Source: Indolivaga macrotermitis (GTDB lineage: Bacteria; Bacteroidota; Bacteroidia; Bacteroidales; Dysgonomonadaceae). Taken from it: a DNA stretch of 64,000 nt. This document shows, piece after piece, positions 6,609-61,906 of the stretch (positions are counted from its first letter, which is position 1; each line of letters begins with the position of its first letter). The notes under the pieces are model-generated. The model was not told the DNA's origin. It ran no database searches and worked only from the letters and a program-made list of their open reading frames with translations. The stretch is from the NCBI RefSeq assembly GCF_900128985.1, contig NZ_FQUC01000009.1:1-64000 (forward strand). The letters are read 5' to 3'. Both the position numbers and the translations under genes were made by a program.

Positions 6609-6637
6609 AAAGCCTTGGTTATTTAAAATAAACGACA

Positions 6638-7105: not shown

Positions 7106-7111
7106 ATACTA

Positions 7112-7153
7112 AAAAAAGAGCGGCTCAGATAAATAACTGAGCCGCTCTTTTTT
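7112..7153. terminator. Bidirectional rho-independent terminator
   Basis: A perfect 17-bp stem (7112-7128 with 7137-7153) has an A-run on one side and a T-run on the other. It can stop both rpiB (plus) and the convergent membrane-protein gene (minus), whose stop codon is at 7155-7157. Confidence 0.9.
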
Positions 7154-7154
7154 G

Positions 7155-7892: not shown

Positions 7893-8034
7893 AATATATT
7901 CAAGGTTAAAGATTATTAATAAGTCAAATATAGGCAATCATTTTAAAAGTTAAGAAAAAGAATATTGATTTTGAAACTAATATTTTACTATCTCACTGAA
8001 TATATTAACTTTGTCTTAATATTAAAAACTCAAC

Positions 8035-8898
8035 ATGAAAGGAATAATTCTAGCAGGAGGAAGTGCGACACGGCTTTATCCATTATCGAAAGCCATATCA
8101 AAACAAATAATGCCTGTCTATGACAAACCGATGATTTATTATCCGTTGTCCACATTAATGCTTGCAGGTATCAGAGAGGTATTGATTATTTCAACACCCC
8201 GGGATTTACCGATGTTTAAAGAATTATTAGGATCGGGCGAAGAACTGGGGATGAGATTTGAGTATATAATTCAAGAAAAACCTGATGGTTTGGCACAAGC
8301 TTTTGTTTTAGGTGCCCAGTTCCTGAACGGTGAAGCCGGATGTCTGATTCTGGGAGATAATATGTTTTATGGCCAAGGCTTTTCTAAAATGCTCAAGCGG
8401 GCAGCTTCAATAGAGAAAGGAGCTTGTATATTTGGCTATTATGTAAAAGATCCGCGTGCATACGGAGTTGTAGAATTCGATAATACAGGAAAGGTTATCT
8501 CTTTAGAGGAAAAGCCTGAAAAACCAAAATCGAATTATGCTGTTCCCGGACTCTATTTCTATGATAAGACTGTAACAGAGAAAGCTAAAAATCTGAAACC
8601 TTCTCTCCGTGGAGAATATGAAATTACAGACTTGAATAAAGTTTATTTAGGAGAAGGTACATTGCAGGTTGAAATATTCGGACGTGGATTTGCATGGCTC
8701 GATACGGGGAATTGTGACAGCTTACTTGAAGCAGGAAATTTTGTTGAAACAATTCAGAACAGACAGGGTTTTTATGTGTCTTGTATCGAAGAAATAGCAT
8801 GGAGAAATGGCTGGATCGACGATAACCAGTTGACAGTCTTAGGACAAAAGCTGGATAAAACTTCGTACGGAAAATATATTTTAAGTTTATTGTCATAA
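8035..8898 (+). CDS. rfbA: Glucose-1-phosphate thymidylyltransferase
   Basis: RfbA makes dTDP-glucose from dTTP and glucose 1-phosphate, the first step to dTDP-rhamnose and related sugars. At 287 residues it is full length. The nucleotidyltransferase signature [11 protein letters not shown] is at the N-terminus, followed by [17 protein letters not shown] and the [13 protein letters not shown] segment. The usual GGSGTRL glycine is an alanine. The partners rfbB, rfbC and rfbD are not adjacent, so it is an orphan copy and may serve the glycan locus 40 kb downstream (inference). A -7-like TAACTTTG lies at 8006-8013. Confidence 0.95.
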
Positions 8899-8954
8899 GT
8901 GCAGTAAAGAGAAAATAGAATATTTTGTTATCGGAAATTATATTTTTCCAGTAA

Positions 8955-9704
8955 ATGAGAAAGAAAAAATCAAAACAACAATTAAAGTCGGTTATATGTA
9001 TTACGACTTTGATTGTTGTTTTTTTATCTTTGGGATATTATTTTTATAAGAAGAACTCGATAGCTAATACCTTCGATAAGAATACAAAGTATTCGGTCAG
9101 AGGAATAGATATTTCCCATCATAATCCGATACTGAACTGGATAGAAGTGAAAAATGAAGGTGTTAGTTTTGCTTATATAAAAGCTACGGAGGGGATTACG
9201 CATGACGACCGGAATTACCCATATAATTATAAGTTGGCGAAAGAGAATGGAGTGCGAATAGGGTCATACCATTTCTATAACTTCGGAGTATCAGGACGGG
9301 AACAGGCAAAGCATTTTATAAAAGTTGCGACATGCGAACCCGGAGATTTATTACCGGCTATAGATGTAGAGCATTCGCCTGCCAATCCGTATAGTAAAGA
9401 TACATTGTTTGTAAGAAGTGTAATAAAGGAATTAAAGATACTGGAAAACGAATTATATGAATATTATGGACATCATCCGATAATATACACCAATCTGGAC
9501 TGTTACAAATTATATATAAATAAACAGTTTCCGGATAACCCGATATGGATTAGTTCTTTGAATAAAGAGCCGGGCGATGATATTGAAAACTGGGTGATCT
9601 GGCAGTTTTCGCATAAGGGTGAACTAACCAGCCTCGATGGAGACGTAGACCTGAATTATTTCAGGTATACTATCGATAGGATAAGCGAGATATGTTTGCC
9701 CTGA
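8955..9704 (+). CDS. Glycoside hydrolase family 25 lysozyme, membrane-anchored
   Basis: GH25 enzymes are N,O-muramidases that cut the MurNAc-GlcNAc bond of peptidoglycan. The 249-residue protein begins with a basic stretch and one hydrophobic helix (about residues 13-32), so it is probably anchored in the inner membrane facing the periplasm. The GH25 landmarks are present in order: GIDISHHN, FAYIKATEG, GSYHFYNFG, the acidic pair in PAIDVEH, and a C-terminal WQFSHKG. It starts a run of four closely spaced envelope genes with an S41 peptidase, LemA and a DUF3137 protein. Confidence 0.9.
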   Translation: MRKKKSKQQLKSVICITTLIVVFLSLGYYFYKKNSIANTFDKNTKYSVRGIDISHHNPILNWIEVKNEGVSFAYIKATEGITHDDRNYPYNYKLAKENGVRIGSYHFYNFGVSGREQAKHFIKVATCEPGDLLPAIDVEHSPANPYSKDTLFVRSVIKELKILENELYEYYGHHPIIYTNLDCYKLYINKQFPDNPIWISSLNKEPGDDIENWVIWQFSHKGELTSLDGDVDLNYFRYTIDRISEICLP

Positions 9705-9716
9705 AAATAGAATAAG

Positions 9717-10730
9717 ATGAAGAAATATATATATTACCTGTGTTTATTCCCGGTCTTATTTTTCGCATCATGTTTTCATGAAGAAGAATATGATAATACG
9801 AAGAGAGATAATTTCGAGCTCCTTTGGAAAACCATGGATGAGAAATATTGCTTTTTCGATTATAAAAATATCGATTGGGACGAAGTGTATACCCGTTATT
9901 CAAACAGGATTAGTGAAGATATGTCTCAGGAAGCTTTTTTTGATGTATTAGGTGAAATGTTAGCCGAATTGAAGGATGGGCATGTAAACCTTATTGCCAA
10001 TCATAATATTTCGCGTTACTGGAAATGGTTTGAAGACTATCCTGATAATTTTGATGAAAAGATACAGAAGAATTATATCGGTACCGATTATTTAATAGCA
10101 GGCGGTATGAAATATAAAATACTGGAAGATAATATCGGCTATATCTATTACGAAAGTTTCTCAAGTGGAGTAGGTGAGGCAAACTTAGACCAGATATTAA
10201 GCCGGATGTCTATTTGTAATGGTATAATTATCGATATAAGGAATAATGGCGGAGGCTTACTTACCAATGTAGAGAAGATAGCCGGACGTTTCTTCGAAGA
10301 AAAGACATTGGTAGGATATATTATGTATAAGACAGGAAAAGGACATAATAGTTTTTCCGAGCCGTATCCCCGGTATATCAGTCCCTCCAGCAGAGTAAGA
10401 TATCAAAAGAATGTGGTGGTGCTGACAAACAGGAGTTGTTACAGTGCCGCAAACGATTTTGTGAATGCCATGACATATGCACCTAATGTCACAATTATAG
10501 GAGATAAGACAGGAGGGGGAAGCGGTTTGCCTTTTTCATCGGAATTGATGAACGGATGGTCTGTGAGATTCTCTTCGTCTCCGATGTTGAATGCTTCGAA
10601 AGAACAAATCGAATTCGGGATCGATCCAGATATAAAGGTAGATATGGCAAGTGAAGATATACTTCTGGGGATAGATACGATTTTGGAGACAGCTCGAATT
10701 TTTTTGAATAAGAACAATTATATAAATTAA
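9717..10730 (+). CDS. S41-family peptidase lipoprotein
   Basis: The 337-residue protein has a lipoprotein signal with a lipobox-like FFASC at about residue 19, so it should be attached to a membrane outside the cytoplasm. The C-terminal half is an S41 (tail-specific/tricorn-type) protease domain: DIRNNGGG at about residue 174, the nucleophile region NRSCYSAANDF (about residue 238) and GDKTGGGSGLP. The N-terminal part (DEKYCFFDYKNIDW, EMLAELKDGHVNL) matches the helical region seen in Bacteroidota S41 proteins. It is 12 bases after the GH25 gene and 7 bases before lemA. Its substrate is unknown. Confidence 0.88.
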   Translation: MKKYIYYLCLFPVLFFASCFHEEEYDNTKRDNFELLWKTMDEKYCFFDYKNIDWDEVYTRYSNRISEDMSQEAFFDVLGEMLAELKDGHVNLIANHNISRYWKWFEDYPDNFDEKIQKNYIGTDYLIAGGMKYKILEDNIGYIYYESFSSGVGEANLDQILSRMSICNGIIIDIRNNGGGLLTNVEKIAGRFFEEKTLVGYIMYKTGKGHNSFSEPYPRYISPSSRVRYQKNVVVLTNRSCYSAANDFVNAMTYAPNVTIIGDKTGGGSGLPFSSELMNGWSVRFSSSPMLNASKEQIEFGIDPDIKVDMASEDILLGIDTILETARIFLNKNNYIN

Positions 10731-10737
10731 ATTAGTT

Positions 10738-11304
10738 ATGGGATTTGGATTAATAGCAACACTTGGCGCGATTGTACTGATCGTAATAATAATTATCAGT
10801 ATACGCAATAGCCTAATCGGGAAGAAAAATAAGGTCGAGTATGCAAATGGTGCAGTTGATGCCATGTTTAAACAACGTTACGACCTGATACCTAACCTTG
10901 TGGCTTCGGTTAAGCAGTATATGCAACATGAGAGCGGTCTTTTGGAACGTTTAGTGCAATTACGTTCGCAGGCGCAGCAACCGAACCTGAGCGAACAGCA
11001 ACGCAACAACCTCAATAATGAATTGGATCATGCTCTTAAAACATTTAATATTTCGGTAGAGAACTATCCGAACCTGAAAGCCAGTGAGCAATTTAGTAGA
11101 TTACAGGCATCTTTGAACGAATGTGAGGGACAATTAGCTGCAGCGCGCCGGACTTATAATGCTGCAGTAATGGAATATAATAACGCTATAGAGATGTTCC
11201 CTTCCAGTATATTTGCCTCGCAGATGGGATATGTGAGAAAAGAAATGATCACAGCCAGCGAACAGGAGCAGGTTAACCCGAATGTAGGAAATCTGTTTCA
11301 ATAA
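10738..11304 (+). CDS. lemA: LemA family protein
   Basis: LemA proteins have one N-terminal transmembrane helix and a long helical bundle. Here the helix is residues 5-24, followed by the family-defining VDAMFKQRYDLIPNLVASVK segment and a C-terminal SIFASQMGY stretch. The length of 188 residues is normal. The molecular role is unsettled; in many bacteria LemA neighbours TPM or DUF3137 proteins, and a DUF3137 gene follows here too. Located 7 bases after the S41 peptidase gene, so it is probably co-transcribed. Confidence 0.93.
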   Translation: MGFGLIATLGAIVLIVIIIISIRNSLIGKKNKVEYANGAVDAMFKQRYDLIPNLVASVKQYMQHESGLLERLVQLRSQAQQPNLSEQQRNNLNNELDHALKTFNISVENYPNLKASEQFSRLQASLNECEGQLAAARRTYNAAVMEYNNAIEMFPSSIFASQMGYVRKEMITASEQEQVNPNVGNLFQ

Positions 11305-11408
11305 GTTTGAATGAATAATGATTCATAAATATTTATGCCAATTATTAGATATTCTGGATCTTGAAGAAATCCTTTAGACAAGGTAAAACAACAACACTTA
11401 TACCCACT

Positions 11409-12452
11409 ATGGCAACTAATTCTTTATTGACAAACCTGTCTCAAAGGGTTGATGATCTGAACTTCAGGTTGAAATATATATTACAACCACTGGAAGAGTC
11501 GCGTCTGAAAATCAAAAAGCGAAGACAAATACTTTGGATGACTTTTTGGGGTGTATTTCTTATTGTAGCACTATTAACCATACTTTTATTACCCCTCAAT
11601 ATGGGAGTATCTCTTCCCGTTCCTGTCATATATATTATAGCCATTATACTTTTTACAATTCCGGTTGGTATAATATATTTTATAATATTCGCTTTTTGGA
11701 TTTTTCCGAAAGACAGAGAATTACAGGGATTATTTCATTCGCAAGTTATTCCACATATCCTTTCGGAGTTTTTATCGGATGCCCGTTTTATCCACGAGGG
11801 GTGTGTTTCGGAAAGTGAATATGTACATTCTGATATTTTTAGAAAAAGAATTGATAGGTATTCCGGAGATAATCAGACTAGCGGTTTATTAGGAGAAACG
11901 AAAGTGAAGTTTTCGCGTCTGCATACCGAATATAAAACCGAAAGCAGGGGTAAGAACGGACAAAAGCAGACCCACTGGCATACAATCTTCGAAGGTGTTC
12001 TGCTGATCGCTGATTTTAATAAGAATACGCAAGGACGTACCTTTATCCTGAAAGATTCAGCCGAAAAAATGTTTGGCGGAATCGGACGCTGGATGCAGGA
12101 TAAATTCGGGTCGTCGGGTCGTGGCGAAATGGTGTATCTGGAAGATGTTGGTTTCGAAAAAGAATATGTTGTATATTCCGATGATGCTGTTGAAGCCCGT
12201 TATTTATTGACTCCATCTATGCAGGAATGTTTTGTCGATTTGTCGAAATACTTCGGTTCGGGAAATGTATCTGCATCCATAATCAACGGAAAGTTGTATC
12301 TGGCATTGAGCGGAAAATTTGAACTGTTCTCATTTAAGCGAAAGAAATCATTAATGGAATCCGATACAATTAAATATTATGCCGAAAATCTGTTCAGGGT
12401 TCTTAAAGTGGTAGAAATATTAGACCTCAATACCCGTATATGGGGAAGGTAA
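11409..12452 (+). CDS. DUF3137 family membrane protein
   Basis: Chosen to start at the ATG at 11409 (347 residues); the frame is open from a TTG at 11361, but those 16 residues add nothing recognisable. A coiled N-terminal stretch is followed by two transmembrane helices (about residues 39-60 and 70-97), then a soluble domain with the TKVKFSRLHTEYKT and HWHTIFEGVLLIADFNK patterns typical of DUF3137 proteins, the usual partner of LemA. The topology predicts a cytoplasmic C-terminal domain. Function unknown; probably works with LemA in the envelope. Confidence 0.85.
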   Translation: MATNSLLTNLSQRVDDLNFRLKYILQPLEESRLKIKKRRQILWMTFWGVFLIVALLTILLLPLNMGVSLPVPVIYIIAIILFTIPVGIIYFIIFAFWIFPKDRELQGLFHSQVIPHILSEFLSDARFIHEGCVSESEYVHSDIFRKRIDRYSGDNQTSGLLGETKVKFSRLHTEYKTESRGKNGQKQTHWHTIFEGVLLIADFNKNTQGRTFILKDSAEKMFGGIGRWMQDKFGSSGRGEMVYLEDVGFEKEYVVYSDDAVEARYLLTPSMQECFVDLSKYFGSGNVSASIINGKLYLALSGKFELFSFKRKKSLMESDTIKYYAENLFRVLKVVEILDLNTRIWGR

Positions 12453-48937: not shown

Positions 48938-49801
48938 ATGGATATGACTCAAGACGATCATTGGGATATCGTCATTAAACCCAAGGAAAAAGGATTACAT
49001 CTTAATTTAAAAGAAGTTTGGCGTTATCGAGACCTACTTTACTTATTTGTACATAGGGATTTTGCTGCAACTTACAAGCAGACTATATTAGGTCCGCTAT
49101 GGTTTTTTATTCAACCAATATTTACAACGATAATTTTTACAGTTGTGTTTGGTGGTATTGCAGGTATACCGACAGATGGTTTGCCACAGCCTTTGTTCTA
49201 TATGGCAGGTATATTATGTTGGAATTTTTATAGTGATTGTCTAAACCGTAGTACAGGAACCTTTTTTGCAAATGCAGGTGTTTTCAGCAAGGTGTATTTT
49301 CCTCGTCTAGTGGCTCCAATTGCCGGTATTGCAACATCCATTATTAAGATGTTGATACAGTTGTTATTATTTTTTGCATTTTATGCATATTATATATACG
49401 ATGGCTCTTCAATTGGGATAAATTTATATGCTCTTTTATTTCCGGTATTGGTTATTATGTTGGCAGGACTTGGATTTGGTGTCGGAATCCTTATTTCGTC
49501 AGTAACAATTAAGTATCGAGACTTGTCCATATTATTCTCGTTTGTAGTAGGACTGCTTATGTACATAACGCCTGTTATATATCCTTTGTCTGCCATTCCC
49601 GAAAAATACATGCAATATAAATGGTTAATTCAGTTGAATCCTCTGTCTTCAGTAGTTGAGACGTTTAGATATGGTTTCTTGGGAACAGGTGAATTTTCAT
49701 GGCTTTCATTAGGGTACAGTATGATATTTACTATTATAATAGTTCTATTGGGAATTATTACATTTAATAAAGTAGAACGTCGTTTTGTCGATATCGTTTA
49801 A
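48938..49801 (+). CDS. wzm: ABC-2 type polysaccharide export permease
   Basis: A 287-residue inner-membrane protein with about six helices. It matches Wzm/TagG permeases: an amphipathic N-terminus with LKEVWRYRDLLYLFVHRDFAATYKQ-type sequence, then LGPLWFFIQPI, ILCWNFYSDCL and late YPLSAIPEKY. It forms the channel through which lipid-linked O-antigen or capsule is flipped outward. It is followed by the ATPase gene after 27 bases. A start at 48944 (second Met) is also possible. Confidence 0.93.
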   Translation: MDMTQDDHWDIVIKPKEKGLHLNLKEVWRYRDLLYLFVHRDFAATYKQTILGPLWFFIQPIFTTIIFTVVFGGIAGIPTDGLPQPLFYMAGILCWNFYSDCLNRSTGTFFANAGVFSKVYFPRLVAPIAGIATSIIKMLIQLLLFFAFYAYYIYDGSSIGINLYALLFPVLVIMLAGLGFGVGILISSVTIKYRDLSILFSFVVGLLMYITPVIYPLSAIPEKYMQYKWLIQLNPLSSVVETFRYGFLGTGEFSWLSLGYSMIFTIIIVLLGIITFNKVERRFVDIV

Positions 49802-49828: not shown

Positions 49829-51076
49829 ATGTCTAATATAGCTATAGAATTCGAAAATATATCCAAGCAATATCGTTTGGGAACAATTGGAACAGGTACA
49901 ATCTCTCATGACTTGAATCGGTGGTGGCATCTGGTGCGCGGAAAAGAAGATCCATATTTGAAGATAGGTGAGGTTAATGATAGAAGTTCAAAAGCCACAA
50001 GTGACTATGTCTGGGCATTAAAAGATATTTCGTTCAAGGTAGAGCAAGGCGATGTCTTGGGTATTATAGGTAAAAATGGAGCCGGTAAATCTACATTATT
50101 AAAAATATTATCCCGAGTTACTACTCCTTCAACAGGAGTTATTCGGGCAAAAGGACGTATTGCTTCTCTTCTGGAGGTCGGAACAGGGTTTCATGGAGAG
50201 CTTACCGGACGCGAAAATATCTATATGAATGGAGCGATACTAGGTATGACTAAGAATGAAATAACCCGAAAACTGGATGAAATTGTAGCATTTTCTGGTA
50301 TCGAAAAATATATTGACACACCTGTAAAAAGATATTCTTCGGGTATGACTGTACGCCTGGGGTTTGCCATTGCAGCTCACCTCGAACCAGAGATACTGGT
50401 TGTGGACGAGGTTCTTGCTGTAGGTGATGCCGAGTTTCAGAAAAAGGCTATAGGTAAGATGAAAGATGTGTCACAGTCTGGAGGACGTACTGTATTATTC
50501 GTAAGCCATAATATGTCGGCCATTCAAAGTTTAACCTCGAAATGCGTATTCTTAAAAGATGGTATGGTTAACAGAATAGGACCAACAGAAAAGATCATAA
50601 AACTATATTTTGAAGATAACTTTTCGGACTCACTGGAAAATAAATTGTCCTTTATAAAGGAAGATTTAGATGAAAATAAACCTATAGAATTACTTACAGC
50701 AAAGATAATCCAGTCGGCTCATAGTATAGAGGTTATGATTGAATATGTTGTAAGAGAGGTAGTTGGTAGTGTTGTTGCTATTAAAATAATTAATACAGAA
50801 GAAGTTTCTATTTTGACAATTATTGATACCGATAATGAAAATATTCCTTTTCGGAAAGAAGTAGGACGGCATTCCGTTAGATTTCAAATCCCACAGGATA
50901 TATTGACCCCTAATACATTCTTTATGACGGTCTCTTTTTCTGACATGAAATCAGAACGTTTTGACTTTTATGAAAAGCTATTGTCATTTTCCATTACTGA
51001 ATACAATGATATTCTTGATTCTGAAAAAAGAGGTGGAATCATCAGGCCTTCAGAACAGTATGTTATAACTCCTTGA
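49829..51076 (+). CDS. wzt: Polysaccharide ABC exporter ATPase with Wzt C-terminal domain
   Basis: The 415-residue ATPase has Walker A GKNGAGKST (about residue 80), the signature YSSGMTVRLGFAIAAHL and Walker B EILVVDEVLAVGD. Residues about 275-415 are a beta-sandwich domain like Wzt-C, which in E. coli O9a and related systems recognises a modified non-reducing end of the glycan before export. That suggests the polymer here carries a chain-terminal mark. It pairs with the Wzm-type permease. Confidence 0.93.
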   Translation: MSNIAIEFENISKQYRLGTIGTGTISHDLNRWWHLVRGKEDPYLKIGEVNDRSSKATSDYVWALKDISFKVEQGDVLGIIGKNGAGKSTLLKILSRVTTPSTGVIRAKGRIASLLEVGTGFHGELTGRENIYMNGAILGMTKNEITRKLDEIVAFSGIEKYIDTPVKRYSSGMTVRLGFAIAAHLEPEILVVDEVLAVGDAEFQKKAIGKMKDVSQSGGRTVLFVSHNMSAIQSLTSKCVFLKDGMVNRIGPTEKIIKLYFEDNFSDSLENKLSFIKEDLDENKPIELLTAKIIQSAHSIEVMIEYVVREVVGSVVAIKIINTEEVSILTIIDTDNENIPFRKEVGRHSVRFQIPQDILTPNTFFMTVSFSDMKSERFDFYEKLLSFSITEYNDILDSEKRGGIIRPSEQYVITP

Positions 51077-51106: not shown

Positions 51107-53332
51107 ATGAAACAAGTAGTAAAAAATATAATATTGCCTTTTTTTCAGAATACCTCTATTTATAAAAGATGGAGGGAACATCAGGATAAACAATGGCAGA
51201 TTACGATTCTTAATGAACTAAAAAAGCGAGAAAATGAGAAATCTAAAATTTCTCACAAAATTGAGGTTGTTAATCTTAATGCCGATGATGTTTGTAATTC
51301 CAGATGTGTTATGTGTAATATCTGGAAGCAAAAAAAGCAATATGAAGTTTCTCCGGATGATTTGGTAAAGATACTAAACGATCCTTTGTATAAGGATGTT
51401 AAGCACATTGGAGTTACTGGTGGTGAACCGACTTTGAGAGAAGATTTATCACTCTTATACGAGTCTTTATTTAAAGCCCTTCCGGAAATGGAAGGCGCAA
51501 GTATTATCACGAACTGTATTAAATCGGATGTTGTAATCAAGAGGATAGAAGAAGTCATAGATATGTGTGAAAGATATAATAAATCTTTCTCGATGATGGT
51601 ATCTCTTGATGGCTACGGAGAAGTACATGATAAAGTCAGAAGAATAAAAGGTAATTTCGAGAGTGCAATCAAGGTTTTAAACCACTTTAGAAATAAAGGA
51701 ATAGGGGTTGTTACAGGTACAACTATCAGCAAAGTAAATGTGTGGGATGTAGACGAGTTGTTAGATTATTTGAAGGAAAATAATATATCGGGTCGTTTTC
51801 GTATCGCAGAATTTATAAAAAGACTGTATAATGACGAAAATGAAGATATTATACGGAATTTTGACGAAGATGAAAAATACCATTTGATATTGTTTTTCTA
51901 TAAGTTAATTATGACTTATGAGAAAAATGGTACATATCAACGAACATATAGGAGTATAATCAATATTCTTTCTGGAGGTAGCCGTTTGATAGGCTGTCCA
52001 TACCATTCGGAAGGAGTTGTATTGAACTCACGAGGAGAGGTCTCGTATTGCGCTCCGAAATCAAAAATAATAGGAAATGCTTTGGAGGATAGTTCCTTAA
52101 AGCTATATGAGTCTAACTTAGATGAAAGAAGTAGAATTCGTAGAGAAAACTGCGATGATTGTATACATGACTATCATGCACCGGTTACTTATAAAGAAAA
52201 GGCTGCTGAATTTGAAGAAGTAAACTGGCGGCTTGCTATCCAGTTAGATGCCAAATATAAATCTTCGGTCTTCAATAAAGTAGATGCTGCGAAAGTTAAC
52301 AATTCTAATCCGCAGTTTTTTATAACAGGTTGGTATGGTACCGAAACTGTTGGGGATAAAGCTATTCTAGGACAGGTGATAATTGATTTGTACCAGCAAT
52401 ATGGAAAAGATATTGATATTGTTGTATCAAGTATTTATCCTCTGATAACCAAAAGAACAATGTCCGAACTAGGTTTCGACCATGTTAAAGTTGTATTCGT
52501 TTACTCGAAGGACTTTGTTAGCTATATTAAAGGCTCTGAGTCAGTCATTATTGGCGGAGGTCCTTTAATGGATCTGGAAGATCTGGCAATACCTTTGTAT
52601 GCATTCAGAATTGCGAAGTCTCATAATTTAAAAACAGTCATTGCCGGATGCGGATTAGGTCCGCTTATGTTTGTGAAGTATCAGGATGCTGTAAAAGAAA
52701 TTCTTAACTTGGCTGATATTATTCAGTTGAGAGATTGGAAAAGTGTAGAATTAGCAAACGATTGGACTGGAGGAGGAAAAAATATTGAAATGGTTGGAGA
52801 TCCCGCTAAACGATATTTATCCCGATATAAAAACAAGGCCTTTGAACCGAAGGATAAAAAGGTGTTGAGTTGTTTTCTCCGTGAGTTAACTACTGAATAT
52901 GCTATAGAGTCTTTAGAAGAATTTGAGTCTGTCAGAAATAAGTTTGAGTCAGCTTTAGCAACATATATAAAACAAAAAGCAATTGAAATTGGAGCTGATG
53001 AGATATATCTGGATCATATGCATAATTTTCAGGTAGGAAATGATGATAGAGATTTTTCCAGAAGATTTATCAGAACATATTTTAGTGATTTTCAGATTCC
53101 AATCTCTTATAACAAAAAGTTGTCGACGGTTGATTCTATAGTTGAGACAATGAAGACTTCAACAGTGAATATTTGTATGCGTTTCCATTCTGTTGTATTC
53201 GCTCATACTCTGGAGACAAACTTTTTAGCAGTAGATTATACCAGAGGAGGTAAAATTCAGAACTATCTGACAGACAACTCTTGTTTAGATAGGTTGATTT
53301 CAGTTGATGATATCATAAAACATGGGAATTAA
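51107..53332 (+). CDS. Radical SAM enzyme fused to polysaccharide pyruvyl transferase
   Basis: A 741-residue two-domain protein. Residues about 48-360 are a radical SAM domain with the CxxxCxxC triad C63-C67-C70 (CNSRCVMC), the TGGEPTLREDL motif, and a SPASM-like set of auxiliary cysteines at C297, C315, C349 and C352. Residues about 402-735 match the polysaccharide pyruvyl transferase family (CsaB/WcaK-like): GWYGTETVGDKAIL, VIIGGGPLMDLEDL, and MRFHSVVFAH. The second domain would add a pyruvate ketal to a sugar or lipid-linked glycan. The first could modify a sugar or amino-sugar substrate (function inferred). The next gene overlaps it by 11 bases. Confidence 0.9.
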   Translation: MKQVVKNIILPFFQNTSIYKRWREHQDKQWQITILNELKKRENEKSKISHKIEVVNLNADDVCNSRCVMCNIWKQKKQYEVSPDDLVKILNDPLYKDVKHIGVTGGEPTLREDLSLLYESLFKALPEMEGASIITNCIKSDVVIKRIEEVIDMCERYNKSFSMMVSLDGYGEVHDKVRRIKGNFESAIKVLNHFRNKGIGVVTGTTISKVNVWDVDELLDYLKENNISGRFRIAEFIKRLYNDENEDIIRNFDEDEKYHLILFFYKLIMTYEKNGTYQRTYRSIINILSGGSRLIGCPYHSEGVVLNSRGEVSYCAPKSKIIGNALEDSSLKLYESNLDERSRIRRENCDDCIHDYHAPVTYKEKAAEFEEVNWRLAIQLDAKYKSSVFNKVDAAKVNNSNPQFFITGWYGTETVGDKAILGQVIIDLYQQYGKDIDIVVSSIYPLITKRTMSELGFDHVKVVFVYSKDFVSYIKGSESVIIGGGPLMDLEDLAIPLYAFRIAKSHNLKTVIAGCGLGPLMFVKYQDAVKEILNLADIIQLRDWKSVELANDWTGGGKNIEMVGDPAKRYLSRYKNKAFEPKDKKVLSCFLRELTTEYAIESLEEFESVRNKFESALATYIKQKAIEIGADEIYLDHMHNFQVGNDDRDFSRRFIRTYFSDFQIPISYNKKLSTVDSIVETMKTSTVNICMRFHSVVFAHTLETNFLAVDYTRGGKIQNYLTDNSCLDRLISVDDIIKHGN

Positions 53333-54548
53333 GGTTGCTCAAATATCGGTTGCTACAACTGGAGGAGCAGGTGCTGCTGCTTACAGGCTGCATACGGCTC
53401 TAAACGGGAATACGGCTATTGATTCTTATTTTGTACGACAGTTGCCAAATCCCGAATATGCATTTGACAAACAAGTCTATACTGTCGATAAGAAGAAATA
53501 TTCATATACAGACAGGCTTAAAGCAAAGTTGAAGATTGATATTGACACAAAAAATAACCAGAGGGCCGGAATTATAAATCTATGTAATTGCGAAATCGCA
53601 AGTTTTCCGGATACTAATTTCTTAATAGAAGATTATCCTATAGTTAAAGAGGCGGATATTATTAACTTACATTGGGTTGCAGGTTTTCTCAATTATCCGA
53701 CTTTTTTTAAAAAGATAAATAAACCTGTTGTATGGACAATTCATGATATGAATCCCTTCAGTGGTGTTTTTCATTATGAAGGAGATGAGTTTATTAACCA
53801 TGATATAGCAGGACGTTTAAATCAGGAGGCATTAGCCGAGAAATTACATTCTATTCATAAGAGCAAAAAGGTATATGTTGTATCTCCGTCTGAATGGTTG
53901 AAGAAAAAATCGGAGGAAAGCAAAATACTTGGTATCTATCCTCATTTTTTGATACCTAATAGTTTGGATTTTGAACAGTATCCAATCATGGATAGGTTAC
54001 ATGCAAAACAGACGCATAATGTAGATAATGGTCATAAGACATTACTATTTATTGCGCATGATATACAAATTCACCGAAAAGGATTTGATTTGCTTATTGA
54101 AGCCCTGAAAAATATAAACTCCAATAACTACAATTTAATATCTGTTGGCGGACAGAAGGTGGTAGTTAATGACTCTATCAATCATATACATTACGAGAGA
54201 ATACATGATGTCAGAGAGCTCAATAGTATTTATTCGGCAGCTGATATTACGATTTTACCTTCTCGGGAGGATAATTTACCAAATGTAATGTTAGAATCTT
54301 TTGCCAATGGAACACCTGTATTAAGTTTCAGAGTTGGAGGGATGGTTGAGCATGTTATTCCGGGTAAAACAGGATTATTAATGCCAGAAATAAATTCCGG
54401 GGAATTAACCCATTATATTCAGGAGTTTATTGCAAATAAATTTACGTTCGAATCTTCAGATATAAGAGAATACGCTTTGCAGCATTTTAAAGGTGATAGA
54501 CAGGCTGAAGCTTATTCAAAACTATATAATGATATTTTAAATCAATGA
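53322..54548 (+). CDS. GT4-type glycosyltransferase (WcaC-like)
   Basis: A 408-residue GT-B enzyme. The N-terminal domain opens VAQISVATTGGAGAAAYRLH, continues with NLHWVAGFLNYPTFF and WTIHDMNPFSG, and the C-terminal nucleotide-sugar domain has LPSREDNLPNVMLESFANGT and PVLSFRVGGMVEHV, with the E-x7-E-like region of GT4. It overlaps the fusion gene upstream by 11 bases. A paralogue with the same layout lies at 59782. Donor and acceptor are unknown. Confidence 0.92.
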   Translation: MGIKVAQISVATTGGAGAAAYRLHTALNGNTAIDSYFVRQLPNPEYAFDKQVYTVDKKKYSYTDRLKAKLKIDIDTKNNQRAGIINLCNCEIASFPDTNFLIEDYPIVKEADIINLHWVAGFLNYPTFFKKINKPVVWTIHDMNPFSGVFHYEGDEFINHDIAGRLNQEALAEKLHSIHKSKKVYVVSPSEWLKKKSEESKILGIYPHFLIPNSLDFEQYPIMDRLHAKQTHNVDNGHKTLLFIAHDIQIHRKGFDLLIEALKNINSNNYNLISVGGQKVVVNDSINHIHYERIHDVRELNSIYSAADITILPSREDNLPNVMLESFANGTPVLSFRVGGMVEHVIPGKTGLLMPEINSGELTHYIQEFIANKFTFESSDIREYALQHFKGDRQAEAYSKLYNDILNQ

Positions 54549-56110
54549 AACTCTCGATAATAACCATTAATTATAATAATTCGGAAGGTCTTGAGAAAAC
54601 GATTCAGAGCATTGTTAATCAAGATTTTTTTGATTACGAATATATCGTGATTGATGGAGGGTCTACAGATGGTAGTGTTGATGTAATTAAAAAATATTCA
54701 AGAATAGATTATTGGCTTAGTGAGCCCGATTCCGGCGTTTATAATGCAATGAATAAAGGGATTAAAAAGGCACAGGGAGAATATCTGCTATTTATTAATA
54801 GTGGAGATATGCTATATAATAATCAGGTTCTTTCTAATGTATTCGCTAAGAATATAGATAATGACTTACTATACGGAGACTTACACAGAATATTTCCTGA
54901 CGGACATTCGGATATTGTTCAAATGCCGGACTTTGTAGGGTGTGACCAGATGATGGAAAGCACATTGACTCATCCTACAACGTTTATTAAGCGTAGTCTA
55001 TTTGATAAATATGGACTGTACAGGGAAGACTTGAAGATCGTGTCGGATTGGGCTTTCTTCTTTAAAATTATTGTTTTCTCTAATGTCTCTCGCTCTCATT
55101 TGCCCATAACTATTGCGACATTCGATATGGAGGGTATGAGTACCACAAATACGAATTTGGTACAAGCTGAGAGACAGAAAGTAATAGGGGAGTCTTTTTC
55201 CTACGAATTGTATAATATATATTATACACATGGTGCTTATAAACAATTTTATAACCATAAAATATTTAGAATAGCCAGATCTATAAAACATTCACTAAAA
55301 AATGCTTTATCAAAGAAATACTGGTTCGATTTGATTCACAAAAAACGTTTTCATTTCGCAATTACTCGTATAAATAAGACAGTAAGAAATCAGAAAAAAA
55401 ATCCATTATCTATACCTGTCATTATAATTAATTACAATAGACTTAGAGATTTAAAAGAGCTCGTTACTTTTTTGCTTGAGCGCAAGCACCAAAATATTGT
55501 TATTGTTGATAATAAGTCTACATATCCACCTTTATTAGAATATTACAAAGAAATAGAAGGCAAGGTGAATGTTGAGTTTATGGATCAGAATTACGGGCAT
55601 CTTGTGTTTTGGAAGAATAAGTCTCTGTATAACAAATACGGATCAGGGTATTATATAATAACCGATTCAGATGTAATTCCGAATAAAGACTTACCGGAAG
55701 ATTACATAACATATTTGATTAAGATATTGGATAAGTACCCTCAAGTCTCAAAAGTTGGTTTCGCTCTGGATGTAGACGATATCCCCGAACATTATCAATT
55801 AAAAGAACAGGTTCTAAATTGGGAATCTCCGCATTGGGAAGGTAATATCGGAAAGAATTTGTATTTGAATGAATTGGATACAACATTCGCTATCTATCCT
55901 CCATATTATAATTATTCTACATTGGCTGAATTTTATCCTGCAATAAGAATTTCGGGTAATTTTACGGCAAAACATATGGGATGGTATATTGATAATAATA
56001 ATCTGGATGCAGAAGATCTTTATTATTATAATCATGCGAATAGTTCCAGTTCATGGAAACTCAATGAAAAAGGCGAATTTGTAGGGAATCAAATTTATAA
56101 TAAAGAGTGA
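54545..56110 (+). CDS. Two-domain glycosyltransferase (GT2 plus second GT-A-like domain)
   Basis: A 521-residue protein. The first domain (residues 1 to about 215) is a GT2 enzyme: MKLSIITINYNNSEGLEKTI, DYEYIVIDGGSTDGS and the NAMNKGI segment; it ends near MEGMSTTN. The second domain starts near residue 290 with IPVIIINYNRLRDLKELV, then IVIVDNKSTY, YYIITDSDVIPNKDLPEDY and a WESPHWEG region, another GT-A-type fold with a DSD metal motif. Two catalytic centres in one chain suggest sequential addition of two sugars. It overlaps the gene before it by 4 bases. Confidence 0.88.
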   Translation: MKLSIITINYNNSEGLEKTIQSIVNQDFFDYEYIVIDGGSTDGSVDVIKKYSRIDYWLSEPDSGVYNAMNKGIKKAQGEYLLFINSGDMLYNNQVLSNVFAKNIDNDLLYGDLHRIFPDGHSDIVQMPDFVGCDQMMESTLTHPTTFIKRSLFDKYGLYREDLKIVSDWAFFFKIIVFSNVSRSHLPITIATFDMEGMSTTNTNLVQAERQKVIGESFSYELYNIYYTHGAYKQFYNHKIFRIARSIKHSLKNALSKKYWFDLIHKKRFHFAITRINKTVRNQKKNPLSIPVIIINYNRLRDLKELVTFLLERKHQNIVIVDNKSTYPPLLEYYKEIEGKVNVEFMDQNYGHLVFWKNKSLYNKYGSGYYIITDSDVIPNKDLPEDYITYLIKILDKYPQVSKVGFALDVDDIPEHYQLKEQVLNWESPHWEGNIGKNLYLNELDTTFAIYPPYYNYSTLAEFYPAIRISGNFTAKHMGWYIDNNNLDAEDLYYYNHANSSSSWKLNEKGEFVGNQIYNKE

Positions 56111-56112
56111 AT

Positions 56113-57018
56113 ATGGTTTCTGTTATTATACCTAATTATAATCATGCTCCTTATTTAAAGTTAAGGATTGATTCTGTACTGAATCAAACTTATCAGGATT
56201 TTGAGGTTATATTATTAGATGATAAGTCGACAGATAACAGTAGAGAAATAATAAAAGAGTATACCGGTCATCCCAAAGTTTCTCATATTATCTTTAATGA
56301 AACGAACAGTGGCACTACATTTAAGCAGTGGCAAAAAGGGCTGGAACTTTCAAAAGGTGAATATGTTTGGATAGCCGAAAGTGATGATCATGCAGATGAG
56401 ACTTTTCTTGAAAAAGTGATGGCTTCTATTGGGAAATACCAATCTGTACTTGGTTGTGCTTTATCGCAAATTATTAATGAAAACGGTCATATCAAACGTT
56501 CTCGGGCAGCAATAATGGATGAAGAATATTGTAAAAAAGAAGAGTTTCTGTCGAAGCATCTACTTTTGGGCAATGTTATTTATAATGCAAGTACGGTTGT
56601 GTTTCGGAAGGATGCAATACAAGCGTCTATTTGGGATGAAATTACTAAACTGAAATATTGTGGCGACTGGCTTTTTTGGGCAAGGCTTATAATGACAGGC
56701 AGTGGAGGTGTTACCGAAGTAAAGGAATATCTTAACTATTTCAGAACACATAGTGGAAATGTTTCTAATAAATCGGAAACAAATGGCTTAACATTTTTGG
56801 AGGGTTTCCCTATCTCGAAAATGATAGCAAAGGAGCAAAATATAAAATGTGACAAGCAATTCCGCCAAAAATGGTTCTTCGAATGGCAACATTACCGAGC
56901 ATTTTACCATTTTTCAAAGAAAACAAGTTTGAAAGTATTTTTGTTATTTTTAAAAAGGGAGCCTCTTATTGCTCTATATGAATTAGAACGATTAGTAACC
57001 CGATTCTTTAAAAGATAA
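56113..57018 (+). CDS. Glycosyltransferase family 2
   Basis: A GT-A enzyme of about 301 residues, starting MVSVIIPNYNHAPYLKLRID with VILLDDKSTDNS, and the DXD-like segment WIAESDDHADETF (about residue 95). A GTG at 56107 could also start it; the ATG at 56113, two bases after the upstream stop, was preferred. It belongs to the glycan operon. Specificity unknown. Confidence 0.9.
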   Translation: MVSVIIPNYNHAPYLKLRIDSVLNQTYQDFEVILLDDKSTDNSREIIKEYTGHPKVSHIIFNETNSGTTFKQWQKGLELSKGEYVWIAESDDHADETFLEKVMASIGKYQSVLGCALSQIINENGHIKRSRAAIMDEEYCKKEEFLSKHLLLGNVIYNASTVVFRKDAIQASIWDEITKLKYCGDWLFWARLIMTGSGGVTEVKEYLNYFRTHSGNVSNKSETNGLTFLEGFPISKMIAKEQNIKCDKQFRQKWFFEWQHYRAFYHFSKKTSLKVFLLFLKREPLIALYELERLVTRFFKR

Positions 57019-57044
57019 TAGTGGCCGATTTACAATATTTACAT

Positions 57045-58013
57045 ATGGTATCAGTGTTAATGCCGGTATATAATGCGGCAAAATATATTCGGGAGGCTAT
57101 TGATAGCATTTTGAATCAGACATTTACTGATTTCGAATTCCTGATTATAAATGATGGTTCTACAGATAACACAGCCGATATTGTAAATGAGTATAAAGAT
57201 CCACGTATCAAGCTTGTATCAAATGATTCTAATTGCGGTCTTATCTATACTTTAAATAAGGGAATAGATTTAGCCCAAGGCAAATATATTGCACGTATGG
57301 ATGCCGATGATATATGTGCCCCTCAAAGATTAGAGATGCAGGTGGGATATCTGGAAAAAAATCCGGATATTGATATATTGGGAACAGCATTTAATTTTAT
57401 AGGTACTCCTTACGAGATACATCATCCTGTATATCAAGCTGAAATTCGAATAAAACTTTTAGATGATAATGCTTTTTCTCATCCTTCGGTCATGATGCGT
57501 ACTGAAGCTTTGAGGAGAGTAGGTTTACATTACAATAGCGACTATAAACATGTTGAGGATTATCAATTTTGGACACAAGCCGAAATGACAGGTTTGGGAT
57601 TGGCCAACTTAGATGATGTGTTACTGTTTTATCGTCAGCATGCAGATCAGATATCGAGCCAAAAATATGATGAGCAACAGATATCAAAAAAGAATATTCG
57701 ATTAGAGTATTTTCAGCATTATTTCCGGAATAATTTTACTCCCGATGAACTCAAATGCTTATTCGATTATAATAATACAAAAGTTGTATACAAAATTGAA
57801 CTTTTGAATAAGTTGAGTTTAGTAAACAGGCGGGAACATATTTTCTATGATAAGTATTTTGATAATTATATTGATATCCTTATCTACAGGAATATTCCCG
57901 ATAAACAAGCCTTAGGATGGGGGGATGTATTCAGGATTATGAAGAATAATGTATCTTTACATATTAAGAAAACAGTATTAAAAATAAAACTAAAGTTTAT
58001 TTTAGGAAAATAA
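57045..58013 (+). CDS. Glycosyltransferase family 2
   Basis: A GT2 enzyme of about 322 residues: MVSVLMPVYNAAKYIREAID, FLIINDGSTDNT and the metal motif ARMDADDICAP (about residue 90). The frame opens at a GTG at 57021, three bases after the upstream stop; the ATG at 57045 gives the standard N-terminus and was chosen. Contains the usual HPSVMMRTEALRRVG acceptor region. The C-terminus is basic and may be membrane-associated. Confidence 0.9.
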   Translation: MVSVLMPVYNAAKYIREAIDSILNQTFTDFEFLIINDGSTDNTADIVNEYKDPRIKLVSNDSNCGLIYTLNKGIDLAQGKYIARMDADDICAPQRLEMQVGYLEKNPDIDILGTAFNFIGTPYEIHHPVYQAEIRIKLLDDNAFSHPSVMMRTEALRRVGLHYNSDYKHVEDYQFWTQAEMTGLGLANLDDVLLFYRQHADQISSQKYDEQQISKKNIRLEYFQHYFRNNFTPDELKCLFDYNNTKVVYKIELLNKLSLVNRREHIFYDKYFDNYIDILIYRNIPDKQALGWGDVFRIMKNNVSLHIKKTVLKIKLKFILGK

Positions 58014-58017
58014 AAAT

Positions 58018-58845
58018 ATGTTGGAGACTCCCTTAATATCAATTATAGTTCCCTGTTACAATCAGGCTCAATATTTACCTGAAACATTACAATCAGTACT
58101 GGATCAGGAATTATTGCAGTGGGAATGTTTGATTGTTAATGACGGATCTCCTGATAACACCGGGGATATTGCTAAGCAATGGTGCGCTAAGGATACCCGG
58201 TTTAAGTATCTGGAGAAAGCAAACGGAGGCTTAGCCGATGCACGTAACTATGGGATCAGGCATGCGCAGGGAAAGTATATTTTGCCATTGGATTCAGACG
58301 ATAAAATTTCACCTACTTATACAAAAGAAGCCATTGCGATTTTGGATAATAATGCTTCTGTAAAATTAGTATGCTGTAGGGCTATGCTGTTCGATGGGGA
58401 TAACGAGGAGTGGAAATTATTACCATATAGTTATGAGAATCTTTTATTCGTACGTAATTGTATGCACTGCTCATCTGTTTATCGAAACAGCGATTATAAC
58501 AATACACAAGGTTATAATACAAACATGAAGGGTGGCTGGGAGGACTACGATTTCTGGATAGGTTTACTTGAAAGGGAGGATAAAGTAATTTTTCTTGATA
58601 AGATACATTTCTATTACCGGACAAAAGAAGTCTCTATGCGTACTCAGATTTCTAAAGATATGGAAGACTGTTTACGCAAGCAGATATTTAAAAATCATAT
58701 TGATAAATATCTGGCTGAAATAGACCCTATCGAACAGTACCGGGAGTTAAAAGAGTGTAGAATGGTAGAGAGTTCGTTGCAGTATCGAATTGGTGCTTTT
58801 ATCTCAGCTCCCGTTCGTATTATTCGTTCCATTTTTAATAAGTAA
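58018..58845 (+). CDS. Glycosyltransferase family 2
   Basis: A 275-residue GT2 enzyme: LISIIVPCYNQAQYLPETLQ, CLIVNDGSPDNT, LDSDDKISPTY metal motif (about residue 94), and a GGWEDYDFWIGLLERE segment that carries the ED catalytic-base motif. It follows the previous gene by 4 bases and is followed by the fucosyltransferase after 1 base, so the three are translated from one transcript. Confidence 0.92.
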   Translation: MLETPLISIIVPCYNQAQYLPETLQSVLDQELLQWECLIVNDGSPDNTGDIAKQWCAKDTRFKYLEKANGGLADARNYGIRHAQGKYILPLDSDDKISPTYTKEAIAILDNNASVKLVCCRAMLFDGDNEEWKLLPYSYENLLFVRNCMHCSSVYRNSDYNNTQGYNTNMKGGWEDYDFWIGLLEREDKVIFLDKIHFYYRTKEVSMRTQISKDMEDCLRKQIFKNHIDKYLAEIDPIEQYRELKECRMVESSLQYRIGAFISAPVRIIRSIFNK

Positions 58846-58846
58846 A

Positions 58847-59761
58847 ATGATTTATATAGAGTTAAACGGCAGGCTTGGCAATCATCTGTTCCAGATAGCA
58901 ACAGGAGCATCCTTAGCTAAAAAGCATGGAGTGGGTTATAAAGCCGTATGTCATGATGGATATAAGTTGGCTCCTCCCGATAATTGTTATGTAAAGGAAT
59001 ACATAGAGCAGTTCAGACCCAATATATTACGTAATATTGATATCCAGATAGGGCGTCCGGTTGCAGATTGTGATTACTATTATGATATAGAATACATTTA
59101 CAAAGAAATCCCTTATATTGATGGACATGATTTGCTGCTCTATGGAGCTTTCCAGTCTGAGAAATACTTCGATAAGGAATTAGTTCGGCAATTATTCTCT
59201 ATTCCAGATGATATAAAAGAATATATTTATTCGAAGTTTGGAGATATACTCCGTATGGGGGTGACTTCTATTAACGTTCGCAGAGGTGATTATTGCAAGT
59301 TGCCACACCAGTATGCAGTTTGTGGAATGTCTTATTACAATAAAGCCATTGACCGATCGGGACGGGATAAAAAATATTTGATTATAAGCGACGATATAGA
59401 TTGGTGTAAACGTCATTTCAAAGGAGATAACTTTTATTTTGTAGATGATGAAGAGCCTATTATTGATTTATATATTCAAACGCTTTGCGAAAATAATATA
59501 ATCAGTAACAGTACTTTCAGCTGGTGGGGAGCCTGGTTGAATCCGAATCCCGATAAGGTCGTTATTTGTCCTGATCCTTGGTTCGGAAAGTCCTACAGTA
59601 ATTATAGTACACAGGATCTAATTCCTGATGAATGGATACAAGTGGAGAACGAACTCTCATTCGATTTAAAACTGTTAGCCATATATTTACGGACAATAGA
59701 AAAAATTCAGAAGCTTGTGCCAAAGTCTCTCAAACAAAAAATAAAACAATTAAGAAAGTAA
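58847..59761 (+). CDS. Alpha-1,2-fucosyltransferase-type glycosyltransferase (GT11)
   Basis: The 304-residue protein is a GT11 family member, which transfer fucose from GDP-fucose to galactose or related sugars. Visible motifs are IELNGRLGNHLFQIATG at the N-terminus, the arginine-rich donor motif VRRGDY (about residue 141), SDDIDWCKRHF, and the late SNSTFSWWGAWL. The ATG at 58847 is used; a longer frame runs into the upstream gene. A fucosylated glycan is therefore likely, and the host-like H-antigen linkage is a possibility (inference). Confidence 0.92.
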   Translation: MIYIELNGRLGNHLFQIATGASLAKKHGVGYKAVCHDGYKLAPPDNCYVKEYIEQFRPNILRNIDIQIGRPVADCDYYYDIEYIYKEIPYIDGHDLLLYGAFQSEKYFDKELVRQLFSIPDDIKEYIYSKFGDILRMGVTSINVRRGDYCKLPHQYAVCGMSYYNKAIDRSGRDKKYLIISDDIDWCKRHFKGDNFYFVDDEEPIIDLYIQTLCENNIISNSTFSWWGAWLNPNPDKVVICPDPWFGKSYSNYSTQDLIPDEWIQVENELSFDLKLLAIYLRTIEKIQKLVPKSLKQKIKQLRK

Positions 59762-59781
59762 ACAGAAAACAGAAAACAGAA

Positions 59782-61059
59782 ATGAAAGTAGTAACACTAA
59801 GCACAAAAGATTCGTTTGGCGGAGCTGCCCGTGTTGCTTACCGTTTGCATGAAGAGATAAATGCAATGGGGATAGATAATATGCTTTTAGTTAATAATAA
59901 GCGAACATCCAGTTCTACAGTGTGTCTGGCTTCTGATTTTCATGATCATCTGAATCGTTTTACCTATCAACTGAAAAAATATGATATGAAGTATCAGGAG
60001 TTTAAACGGAGACGTAACTGGGCCCGTTATCCTGATATGCAAAATAAGATATTGTCGGATATAGCTGTTTCTTCATTAAATAATGCTTTAGATAAAATTG
60101 ATTTTGATCTTATTCATATGCATTGGGTAGGAGAGAGCTATGTCGATTTTACAGAATTTAAGTCGGTAAAGAATCCGATAGTATGGACATTACATGACTG
60201 TTTTTCGTTTACAGGCTTATGCTCTTATTTCGAAGATTGTGATAAGTATAAGACTCATTGCGGAGCTTGTCCTCAGTTAGGATCAACGAAAGAAAAAGAC
60301 TTTAGTTACAAAGTATTCGATATGAAGTATGACCGTTATGCACCGTTAAAGTTTCATATAGTAACTCCCAGTAAATGGCTTGCAAAAGCAGCATCAGAAA
60401 GTGTATTATTAAGAAAATATCCGATAACAGTTATTCCTAATGGTATAGATACTGAGGTTTTTAGACCAAAAGATAAAAAGGATGCAAAGAAATTATTATC
60501 TTTACACCCTAATAAAAAAACAATACTTTTTGGAGGTATATCAGCAATGGCTGATCCCCGTAAGGGCGGTAGTCTGTTGAAACAGAGCCTCGAAATATTA
60601 TTAACAACTACTGACTTAGAAAATCAGGTGGAGTTGTTAATTTTTGGAGCTGAACAAAAAGATAATATTGACTTTGGATTTCCGGCTAAATATTTAGGGT
60701 ATGTATCAGAAGAGGCAGATCTCTGTAATGCTTATAATGCGGCAGATGTAACGATTGTACCTTCTACACATGAGAACCTCCCAAATACTATTCTCGAAAG
60801 TTTATCATGCGGAACTCCGGTTGTTGCTTTCAATATAGGAGGAAATCCTGACATGATCGATCACACTGAAAATGGATATCTGGCGACTCCTTATGATACA
60901 ACAGACCTTGCTAAGGGTATAGAATACTGTTTAAAGAAAAATAATGATAATATTTTAGGTAGAAACGCCCGTATAAAAGTATTGGATCATTTTAAAATAG
61001 AAGACATTGCAGAACGCTATGTCGAATTGTATAATAAAGTATTGAATAAAAATATATAA
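59782..61059 (+). CDS. GT4-type glycosyltransferase (WcaC-like)
   Basis: About 425 residues from the ATG at 59782; an upstream frame overlaps the fucosyltransferase and is not protein-like. It starts MKVVTLSTKDSFGGAARVAY, has HMHWVGESYVDF, WTLHDCFSFTGLCSYFEDC and a C-rich CGACPQLG segment, and the C-terminal VPSTHENLPNTILESLSCGT. The arrangement resembles the enzyme at 53322, and both resemble WcaC of colanic acid. A paralogous pair within one locus suggests two related linkages. Confidence 0.92.
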   Translation: MKVVTLSTKDSFGGAARVAYRLHEEINAMGIDNMLLVNNKRTSSSTVCLASDFHDHLNRFTYQLKKYDMKYQEFKRRRNWARYPDMQNKILSDIAVSSLNNALDKIDFDLIHMHWVGESYVDFTEFKSVKNPIVWTLHDCFSFTGLCSYFEDCDKYKTHCGACPQLGSTKEKDFSYKVFDMKYDRYAPLKFHIVTPSKWLAKAASESVLLRKYPITVIPNGIDTEVFRPKDKKDAKKLLSLHPNKKTILFGGISAMADPRKGGSLLKQSLEILLTTTDLENQVELLIFGAEQKDNIDFGFPAKYLGYVSEEADLCNAYNAADVTIVPSTHENLPNTILESLSCGTPVVAFNIGGNPDMIDHTENGYLATPYDTTDLAKGIEYCLKKNNDNILGRNARIKVLDHFKIEDIAERYVELYNKVLNKNI

Positions 61060-61060
61060 T

Positions 61061-61906
61061 ATGGATAATGTAAAATGTCTGATTTGCGGAGGTGATACAA
61101 AGCCTGTATTCACAACAAAGGTATTGCATAAATACGATGTTACTTATCATCGGTGCACATGTTGCGGATTTATTCAGACTGATACTCCATATTGGCTGGA
61201 TGAGGCATATAGTAGTGCTATTACCTCTATGGATATAGGTCTGGTATACCGTAACTTAGTGTACTCTCCACAGGTAGAGCATGTGATAAAAACATCATTC
61301 GATTACAATAAAAATTTTTTGGATTATGCCGGCGGATATGGATTATTTGTCCGCATAATGCGCGATAAAGGTTTTGATTTCTATTGGGATGATAAATATT
61401 GTGACAATCTTTTTGCTCAATATTTCACATTGGAAGAACTTCCCCAAGGTCAGAAATTTGAAGCTGTTACAGCATTCGAAATATTCGAACACTTGGTTAA
61501 TCCCTTAGAAGAAATAGAAAAGCTTTTCGGATATGCCGATTCTATTATCTTTTCGACAGAATTAATCCCTCATAAAGAAATAACATCGCACAATGATTGG
61601 TGGTATTTCGCACCCGAAGGAGGGCAACACGTTGCATTCTATTCGGAAAAGGTATTTGAAACTATAGCAAAGAAATTCGGATGTTCATTCTATTCCAATG
61701 GAAAAGATTTGCATATCCTGACCAAAAAGCCATTATCTAAGAACCCACTGGCATTTACTAAACGTACGACATGGGATAAGATTGCTGATAGGCTGATGGG
61801 AATATTACAAGGCACGAAAAACAATAAACCTGCACCTGTATATCTGCCAAGTAAAATAGGGCAGGATGTAGAATATATAAGGAATATTGTGCATAAAAAA
61901 GATTAA
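61061..61906 (+). CDS. SAM-dependent methyltransferase with zinc-ribbon N-terminus
   Basis: A 281-residue class I methyltransferase. The N-terminus carries two CxxC pairs, CLICGG and CTCCGF (about residues 5-37), likely a zinc site. The SAM motif I is LDYAGGYGLFVRI (about residue 88), followed by AVTAFEIFEHLVNP. This pattern occurs in the C-methyltransferase or Methyltransf_23 group that acts on sugars or chain ends. With Wzt-C present it is a candidate for a chain-end mark. Confidence 0.88.
   Translation: MDNVKCLICGGDTKPVFTTKVLHKYDVTYHRCTCCGFIQTDTPYWLDEAYSSAITSMDIGLVYRNLVYSPQVEHVIKTSFDYNKNFLDYAGGYGLFVRIMRDKGFDFYWDDKYCDNLFAQYFTLEELPQGQKFEAVTAFEIFEHLVNPLEEIEKLFGYADSIIFSTELIPHKEITSHNDWWYFAPEGGQHVAFYSEKVFETIAKKFGCSFYSNGKDLHILTKKPLSKNPLAFTKRTTWDKIADRLMGILQGTKNNKPAPVYLPSKIGQDVEYIRNIVHKKD

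Follow-up and report, generated by a model that had tools for sequence, protein, structure and literature searches.

The window analysed here (the whole stretch of 64,000 nucleotides of Indolivaga macrotermitis DNA) carries, at 51107..53332 (+), a gene for one 741-residue protein in which a radical SAM (rSAM) enzyme is fused to a polysaccharide pyruvyltransferase (PPT), and this protein is probably a bifunctional glycan-tailoring enzyme, whose rSAM half would alter a sugar and whose PPT half would add a pyruvate ketal to that sugar or to its neighbor. The coupled modification and pyruvylation proposed in a first-pass annotation is the natural reading: the fusion lies in a glycan-export operon, and its two activities were truly joined, long ago and in an apparently obligate way. 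Since the rSAM and PPT halves always occur together in several bacterial groups, a shared role in a single, so far unrecognised step of sugar decoration is probable.

The gene is a single ATG-started open reading frame, and the fusion of the two domains, the cysteines, and the motifs GWYGTETVGDKAIL, GGGPLMD, and RFHS reported in the first-pass annotation were all recovered. The domain search recommended there placed (i) Radical_SAM (PF04055) at residues 62-222 (E 3.5e-19, 70 bits against a cut-off of 29.5) and (ii) PS_pyruv_trans (PF04230) at residues 421-711 (E 7e-20, 72.5 bits against a cut-off of 25.3), both far above their cut-offs. Residues 1-48 (51107..51250, +) form an N-terminal extension of variable sequence, which is possibly membrane-peripheral and for which AF2 predicted helices at residues 2-14 and 17-45, with low confidence at the very N-terminus. 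The extension is followed by the radical SAM core (residues ~49-222; 51251..51772, +) with C63, C67, and C70; by a twitch-type auxiliary cluster domain (residues ~297-352; 51995..52162, +) with C297, C315, C349, and C352; and by the CsaB-type PPT domain (residues 400-741; 52304..53329, +) with Y410, R542, R692, H694, and K716. With regard to a RiPP maturase, for which an RRE domain and an adjacent precursor peptide would be expected, no further Pfam domain scored above cut-off in the protein, and its neighbors are glycan genes as judged by Pfam.

The same fusion was found in 12 other assemblies, from Bacteroidota and their relatives, Rhodothermia, and Cyanobacteria. Its carriers comprise Bacteroidota MAGs (L022 at 58%, L023 at 52%, and L025 at 51%, the last two being near copies of each other, and the Winogradskyella L024); a Rhodothermia MAG (L026, on the same contig as G243); a Xenococcaceae cyanobacterium (L027); a same-family genome (L003/L037); the genomes G404 (L036) and G367 (L034); and three more genomes in the cyanobacterial sample (L049, L050, and L051). 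Both domains were present in all 11 aligned homologues, the window included. The fusion is rare, occurring in 4 of the 395 phylum-sample genomes and in 4 of the 292 sampled around the cyanobacterium, with the central genome counted in each. When each half was searched alone in 296 phylum genomes, strong matches (E <= 1e-30 for rSAM; E <= 1e-20 for PPT) arose only in the same three genomes, and always as fusions. No related rSAM gene lay within the flanking ~1.5 kb of any unfused PPT locus examined, the virus contigs searched held no fusion, and the plasmid records searched held no fusion and only distant rSAM proteins. When the 11 fused PPTs were placed in a maximum-likelihood tree with 24 unfused ones, they formed one side of a branch (support 99/98); some long rows make the finer placements less sure. 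This topology fits a single ancient joining, and a later transfer of the fusion between phyla is suggested by the nesting of L050 and L051, from the cyanobacterial sample, among Bacteroidota copies. In the Winogradskyella gene (L024 9374-11545), a TGA replaces a glycine codon of the GGGP motif in the PPT part, the remainder being in frame, which reflects a pseudogene or a sequence error.

The window operon is tight, running wzm, wzt, fusion, GT4, GT2, and further glycosyltransferases, with gaps of 27, 30, -11, -4, -4, 2, and 4 bases. Upstream of the fusion lie Wzm, an ABC-2 type permease (48938..49801, +; Pfam ABC2_membrane E 3.5e-18), and a Wzt ATPase (49829..51076, +) with an NBD and a divergent, Wzt_C-like C-terminal domain. 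Downstream, Pfam identified (i) a GT4 glycosyltransferase (53322..54548, +), the conserved partner, whose gene overlaps the fusion gene by 11 bp; (ii) a GT2 glycosyltransferase (54545..56110, +), the third gene of an order conserved in L022 and L024, with 50% and 43% identity to the respective syntenic GT2; (iii) three more GT2 glycosyltransferases (56107..58845, +); (iv) a GT11, fucosyltransferase-type, gene (58790..59761, +; Glyco_transf_11 E 1.6e-23); (v) a second GT4 of the same family as the first (59632..61059, +); and (vi) a Methyltransf_23 methyltransferase (61061..61906, +; E 1.3e-16). The GT11 gene overlaps the mechanical start of the second GT4 frame, and, as GT4 homology there begins at residue ~51, the true start of this frame is probably further downstream.

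A GT4 gene directly follows the fusion in the window and in L022, L024, L035, L036, L037, L049, L050, and L051, and a GT4 detectably related to that of the window is present in seven other loci (L022, L024, L034, L035, L049, L050, and L051); none adjoins the fusion in L023/L025. In G367, a 2290-residue protein matches the fusion over residues 97-777 (36%) and the window GT4 over residues 809-1223 (28% over 441 columns, E 2e-43), and continues with TPRs and another rSAM domain that has a weak B12-binding match (L034, contig C31:12000-31999, at 5267-12139). That the adjacent fusion and GT4 of the window are one polypeptide in G367 is strong evidence of their joint function, and, together with the position of GT4 next to the fusion in most loci, it indicates that the real unit is an rSAM-PPT-GT4 module. 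Of the two same-family GT4 genes in the window operon, the second is the closer one (39-42%) to the partner GT4s found in G367 and L049. Two related GT4 genes also occur in L051 (11177-16265), along with two wzt genes that differ in their C-terminal domains.

The export genes around the fusion vary. Wzm and Wzt are encoded beside it in the window, L022, L023/L025, L024, and the cyanobacterial L050, and L051 has Wzt only, within the stretch fetched; in L023/L025, fusion, wzm, and wzt form a three-gene set of their own, with no neighboring glycosyltransferases in the stretch examined. Wzx-type flippases are encoded in L035, L036, L037, and L049, and a Wzy-type gene lies in L027; fusions in loci of the Wzx and/or Wzy type come from Rhodothermia, from two further genomes on the Bacteroidota side, and from two cyanobacteria. 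The genes for the giant protein of G367, a second giant glycosyltransferase, and a GT2 are followed in the same orientation by two flagellin genes and by FliS and FliD, and ~52 kb of this contig gave no Wzm/Wzt match. The 2290-residue protein and a 1732-residue multi-glycosyltransferase/TPR protein (L097 5775-11977), which adjoin flagellin, FliS, and FliD genes, make up a possible flagellin glycosylation island of giant enzymes. The placement of the fusion with Wzm/Wzt holds for the window and its subclade, whereas other copies reside in Wzx/Wzy-type or flagellin loci. As to the C-terminal domain ascribed to the neighboring Wzt in the first-pass annotation, an extra domain is present and aligns with the profile of its counterparts (hhalign 90%, E 1.7e-6), but Pfam Wzt_C (PF14524) had no match on the window's own Wzt, while it did match counterparts from other fusion loci, some of them below cut-off. 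These C-terminal domains are alike in L022, L050, and L051 (~34% and more), and that of the window is remote from them (27% to L022, and not significant to the others).

It has been suggested, in the same annotation, that the product is a chain-end mark read by Wzt, in which case the modified and pyruvylated residue would be added once at the non-reducing end, would stop polymerisation, and would be bound by the Wzt C-terminal domain for export. The five Wzt-linked copies in the PPT tree, the window included, do form one subclade (95/83), and fusion, wzm, and wzt stand as a set of their own in L023/L025; yet about half of the lineages lack a nearby Wzt, one of them sitting at the flagellin locus, and the Wzt C-terminal domains of the fusion loci are only loosely alike. 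In Klebsiella O1, WbbZ adds a terminal pyruvate ketal and caused chains to end early in vitro, and in other systems, too, pyruvate is a candidate for the terminating group, but a capped chain is not required for export in O1 itself (PMC10629545). Further, the methyltransferase of the same operon (61061..61906) is a rival candidate that could be the chain terminator. We consider a Wzt-read end group unlikely and, given the copies in Wzx/Wzy-type and flagellin loci, reject it as a general role. The varied export contexts and the varied Wzt C-terminal domains instead indicate a glycan-tailoring module, for which reading by Wzt would be at most a local use in the Wzt-linked subclade.

For the tailoring enzyme that we favor, GT4 would supply or use a sugar residue. 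The rSAM half would change this residue, most likely through redox chemistry at a ring carbon or at the carboxylate of the residue, much as BtrN or BlsE do; this assignment is our best guess and a tentative one. The PPT half would use PEP to build a pyruvate ketal on that residue or its neighbor, probably in the cytoplasm while the chain is lipid-linked. Export of the decorated product would follow the route proper to each locus, namely Wzm/Wzt in the window, Wzx/Wzy elsewhere, and, in one genome, a glycan on flagellin; where the fusion is Wzt-linked, the modified group might also be an end cap recognised by Wzt, although the proposed function does not need it.

The residues of the rSAM half suit a single SAM cluster together with one auxiliary Fe-S cluster. 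Exactly seven cysteines (63, 67, 70, 297, 315, 349, and 352) are invariant in the 11 aligned fusions, as are R692 and H694, so the loss of cysteine or RFH residues in homologues, named at the outset as a reason for doubt, is not observed. C63, C67, and C70 satisfy the CX3CX2C motif of the radical SAM superfamily. The auxiliary cysteines, arranged as C297-x12-G-x4-C315 and C349-x2-C352, match the first half of the SPASM motif (CX9-15GX4C..CX2C; PMC6231123), the rest of which is lacking, and this is the pattern of a twitch domain, which has four ligands, as in BtrN, whose single auxiliary cluster is bound by four cysteines (PMC6231123; PMC9012708). Function in SPASM/twitch enzymes is, however, poorly predicted by sequence similarity (PMC6231123). 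An AF2 model of the whole protein (mean pLDDT 79, pTM 0.79), built from a seven-row alignment and poor in the cluster loop 59-78, matched BlsE, SkfB, and anSME in its rSAM half, with EpeE also among the matches; all structural matches are fold-level (~10-18% identity) and do not by themselves tell which reaction is catalysed. BtrN was absent among the sequence matches reported and among the 50 fold matches listed.

The rSAM half might alternatively be an epimerase that inverts a single hydroxyl and so provides a diol on which the pyruvate ketal can close, but we regard this as quite improbable. Ketal formation requires the right diol geometry, and rSAM epimerases exist both for sugars, NeoN reportedly being one, and for peptides, as with EpeE, whose entries among the structural matches are of the C223A mutant. 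Known thiol-using rSAM epimerases, though, need a dedicated cysteine as H-atom donor, and within the rSAM half only the seven cluster ligands are invariant cysteines (C154 is present in 9 of 11), which speaks against a thiol-dependent epimerase. It is also conceivable, if a long shot, that the two active sites act sequentially on one group, with the rSAM half acting on the pyruvylated sugar or making the acceptor from an unactivated C-H, which would create an undescribed substituent in ABC-exported, Wzx/Wzy, and flagellin glycans.

Pyruvylation by the C-terminal half is predicted from its conserved residues and motifs. The polysaccharide pyruvyltransferase family (PF04230) is indicated by the Pfam score, by a GT-B fold match, and by the PEP-site Arg, RxH, and Lys, with Y410, R542, R692, H694, and K716 invariant in the 11 fusions. 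In P. alvei CsaB, mutation showed R148, H308, and K328 to be critical to PEP binding, and docking pointed to R306 (PMC10435577). The corresponding R, RxH, and K columns show no variation in unfused CsaB-family proteins either, the equivalence having been drawn through CsaB-family proteins of the cyanobacterial sample, with P. alvei CsaB itself outside the alignment; a further pairing, of R592 with CsaB R207, was dropped because the alignment is gapped there. The best NCBIfam model for this half is CsaB (TIGR03609), at 87.7 bits against an equivalog cut-off of 213.1, and the half is by these scores a CsaB relative and not a member of the equivalog.

One could ask whether the C-terminal half is instead a domain of GT-B fold that uses another donor or serves purely for binding, the rSAM half alone being the enzyme. 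This half of the whole-protein AF2 model matched GT-B proteins that include the pyruvyltransferase Pvg1p (5ax7) and also UDP-GlcNAc 2-epimerases and LpxB; a search against PDB sequences gave no real match, and a model of the half alone from a single sequence (pLDDT 36) was left unused. The half is more variable than the rSAM half (46% versus 60% mean column identity), and the position of CsaB F16 is T or G in the fusions. The invariance of the PEP-site residues in fusions and CsaB-family proteins alike, and the scores of close unfused relatives above the CsaB cut-off, leave this reading with a poor chance. Points against the tailoring enzyme itself are the CsaB score well below cut-off, the L023/L025 loci without an adjoining GT4, and the in-frame TGA of L024. 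Finally, a frameshift or assembly error joining two genes, the artefact raised in the first-pass annotation, has virtually no standing, since the same fusion recurs in 12 other, independent assemblies across phyla and falls in one clade.

Pyruvate ketals serve bacterial glycans as anchors for proteins and can also act as chain caps, and, to our knowledge, rSAM enzymes in glycan loci are mostly without an assigned role. Among the papers searched, none links radical SAM with pyruvyl transferase, or with pyruvyltransferase and polysaccharide, and none describes the fusion architecture. The apparently obligate fusion tells which rSAM subfamily works with pyruvylation, so that a single expression study could bring a new sugar modification to light, and its contexts correct the idea that the rSAM-PPT unit is tied to ABC export.

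Among known systems, CsaB, the cell-wall-polymer pyruvyltransferase, is the closest named model of the C-terminal half, with which it shares the PEP-site R, RxH, and K, and CsaB-family proteins above the model cut-off are among the nearest unfused relatives of the fused PPTs in the tree. Unlike CsaB, the fusion carries an rSAM half, scores under the equivalog cut-off, has replaced the acceptor-site F16, and resides in glycan-export loci, whereas CsaB serves S-layer anchoring. Pyruvate capping of an ABC-exported O antigen is already known from WbbZ of Klebsiella O1, which resembles the fusion in pyruvylating an ABC-transporter-exported glycan but is stand-alone as described, without rSAM, and makes a cap that O1 export does not need (PMC10629545). 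The rSAM half shares the CX3CX2C core with two enzymes of small sugar-like substrates, with BtrN, a twitch sugar-alcohol dehydrogenase with one auxiliary cluster on four cysteines, and with BlsE, the cytosylglucuronate decarboxylase that is its best fold match and among its best sequence matches; the sequence similarity is remote and limited to the core, and both enzymes lack a PPT domain and act on antibiotic precursors. In Bacillota, a separate-gene version is found on the Pseudobutyrivibrio plasmid pNP95 (L094 5956-10492), where an rSAM gene, a PPT annotated as two overlapping pieces, an F420-hydrogenase-beta-type gene, and a GT4 stand in a row. As in the window, rSAM and PPT are followed there by glycan genes, GT4 included, in one direction; they differ in being separate genes of distant subfamilies (rSAM 23% identity) and in the presence of the F420-hydrogenase-beta-type gene.
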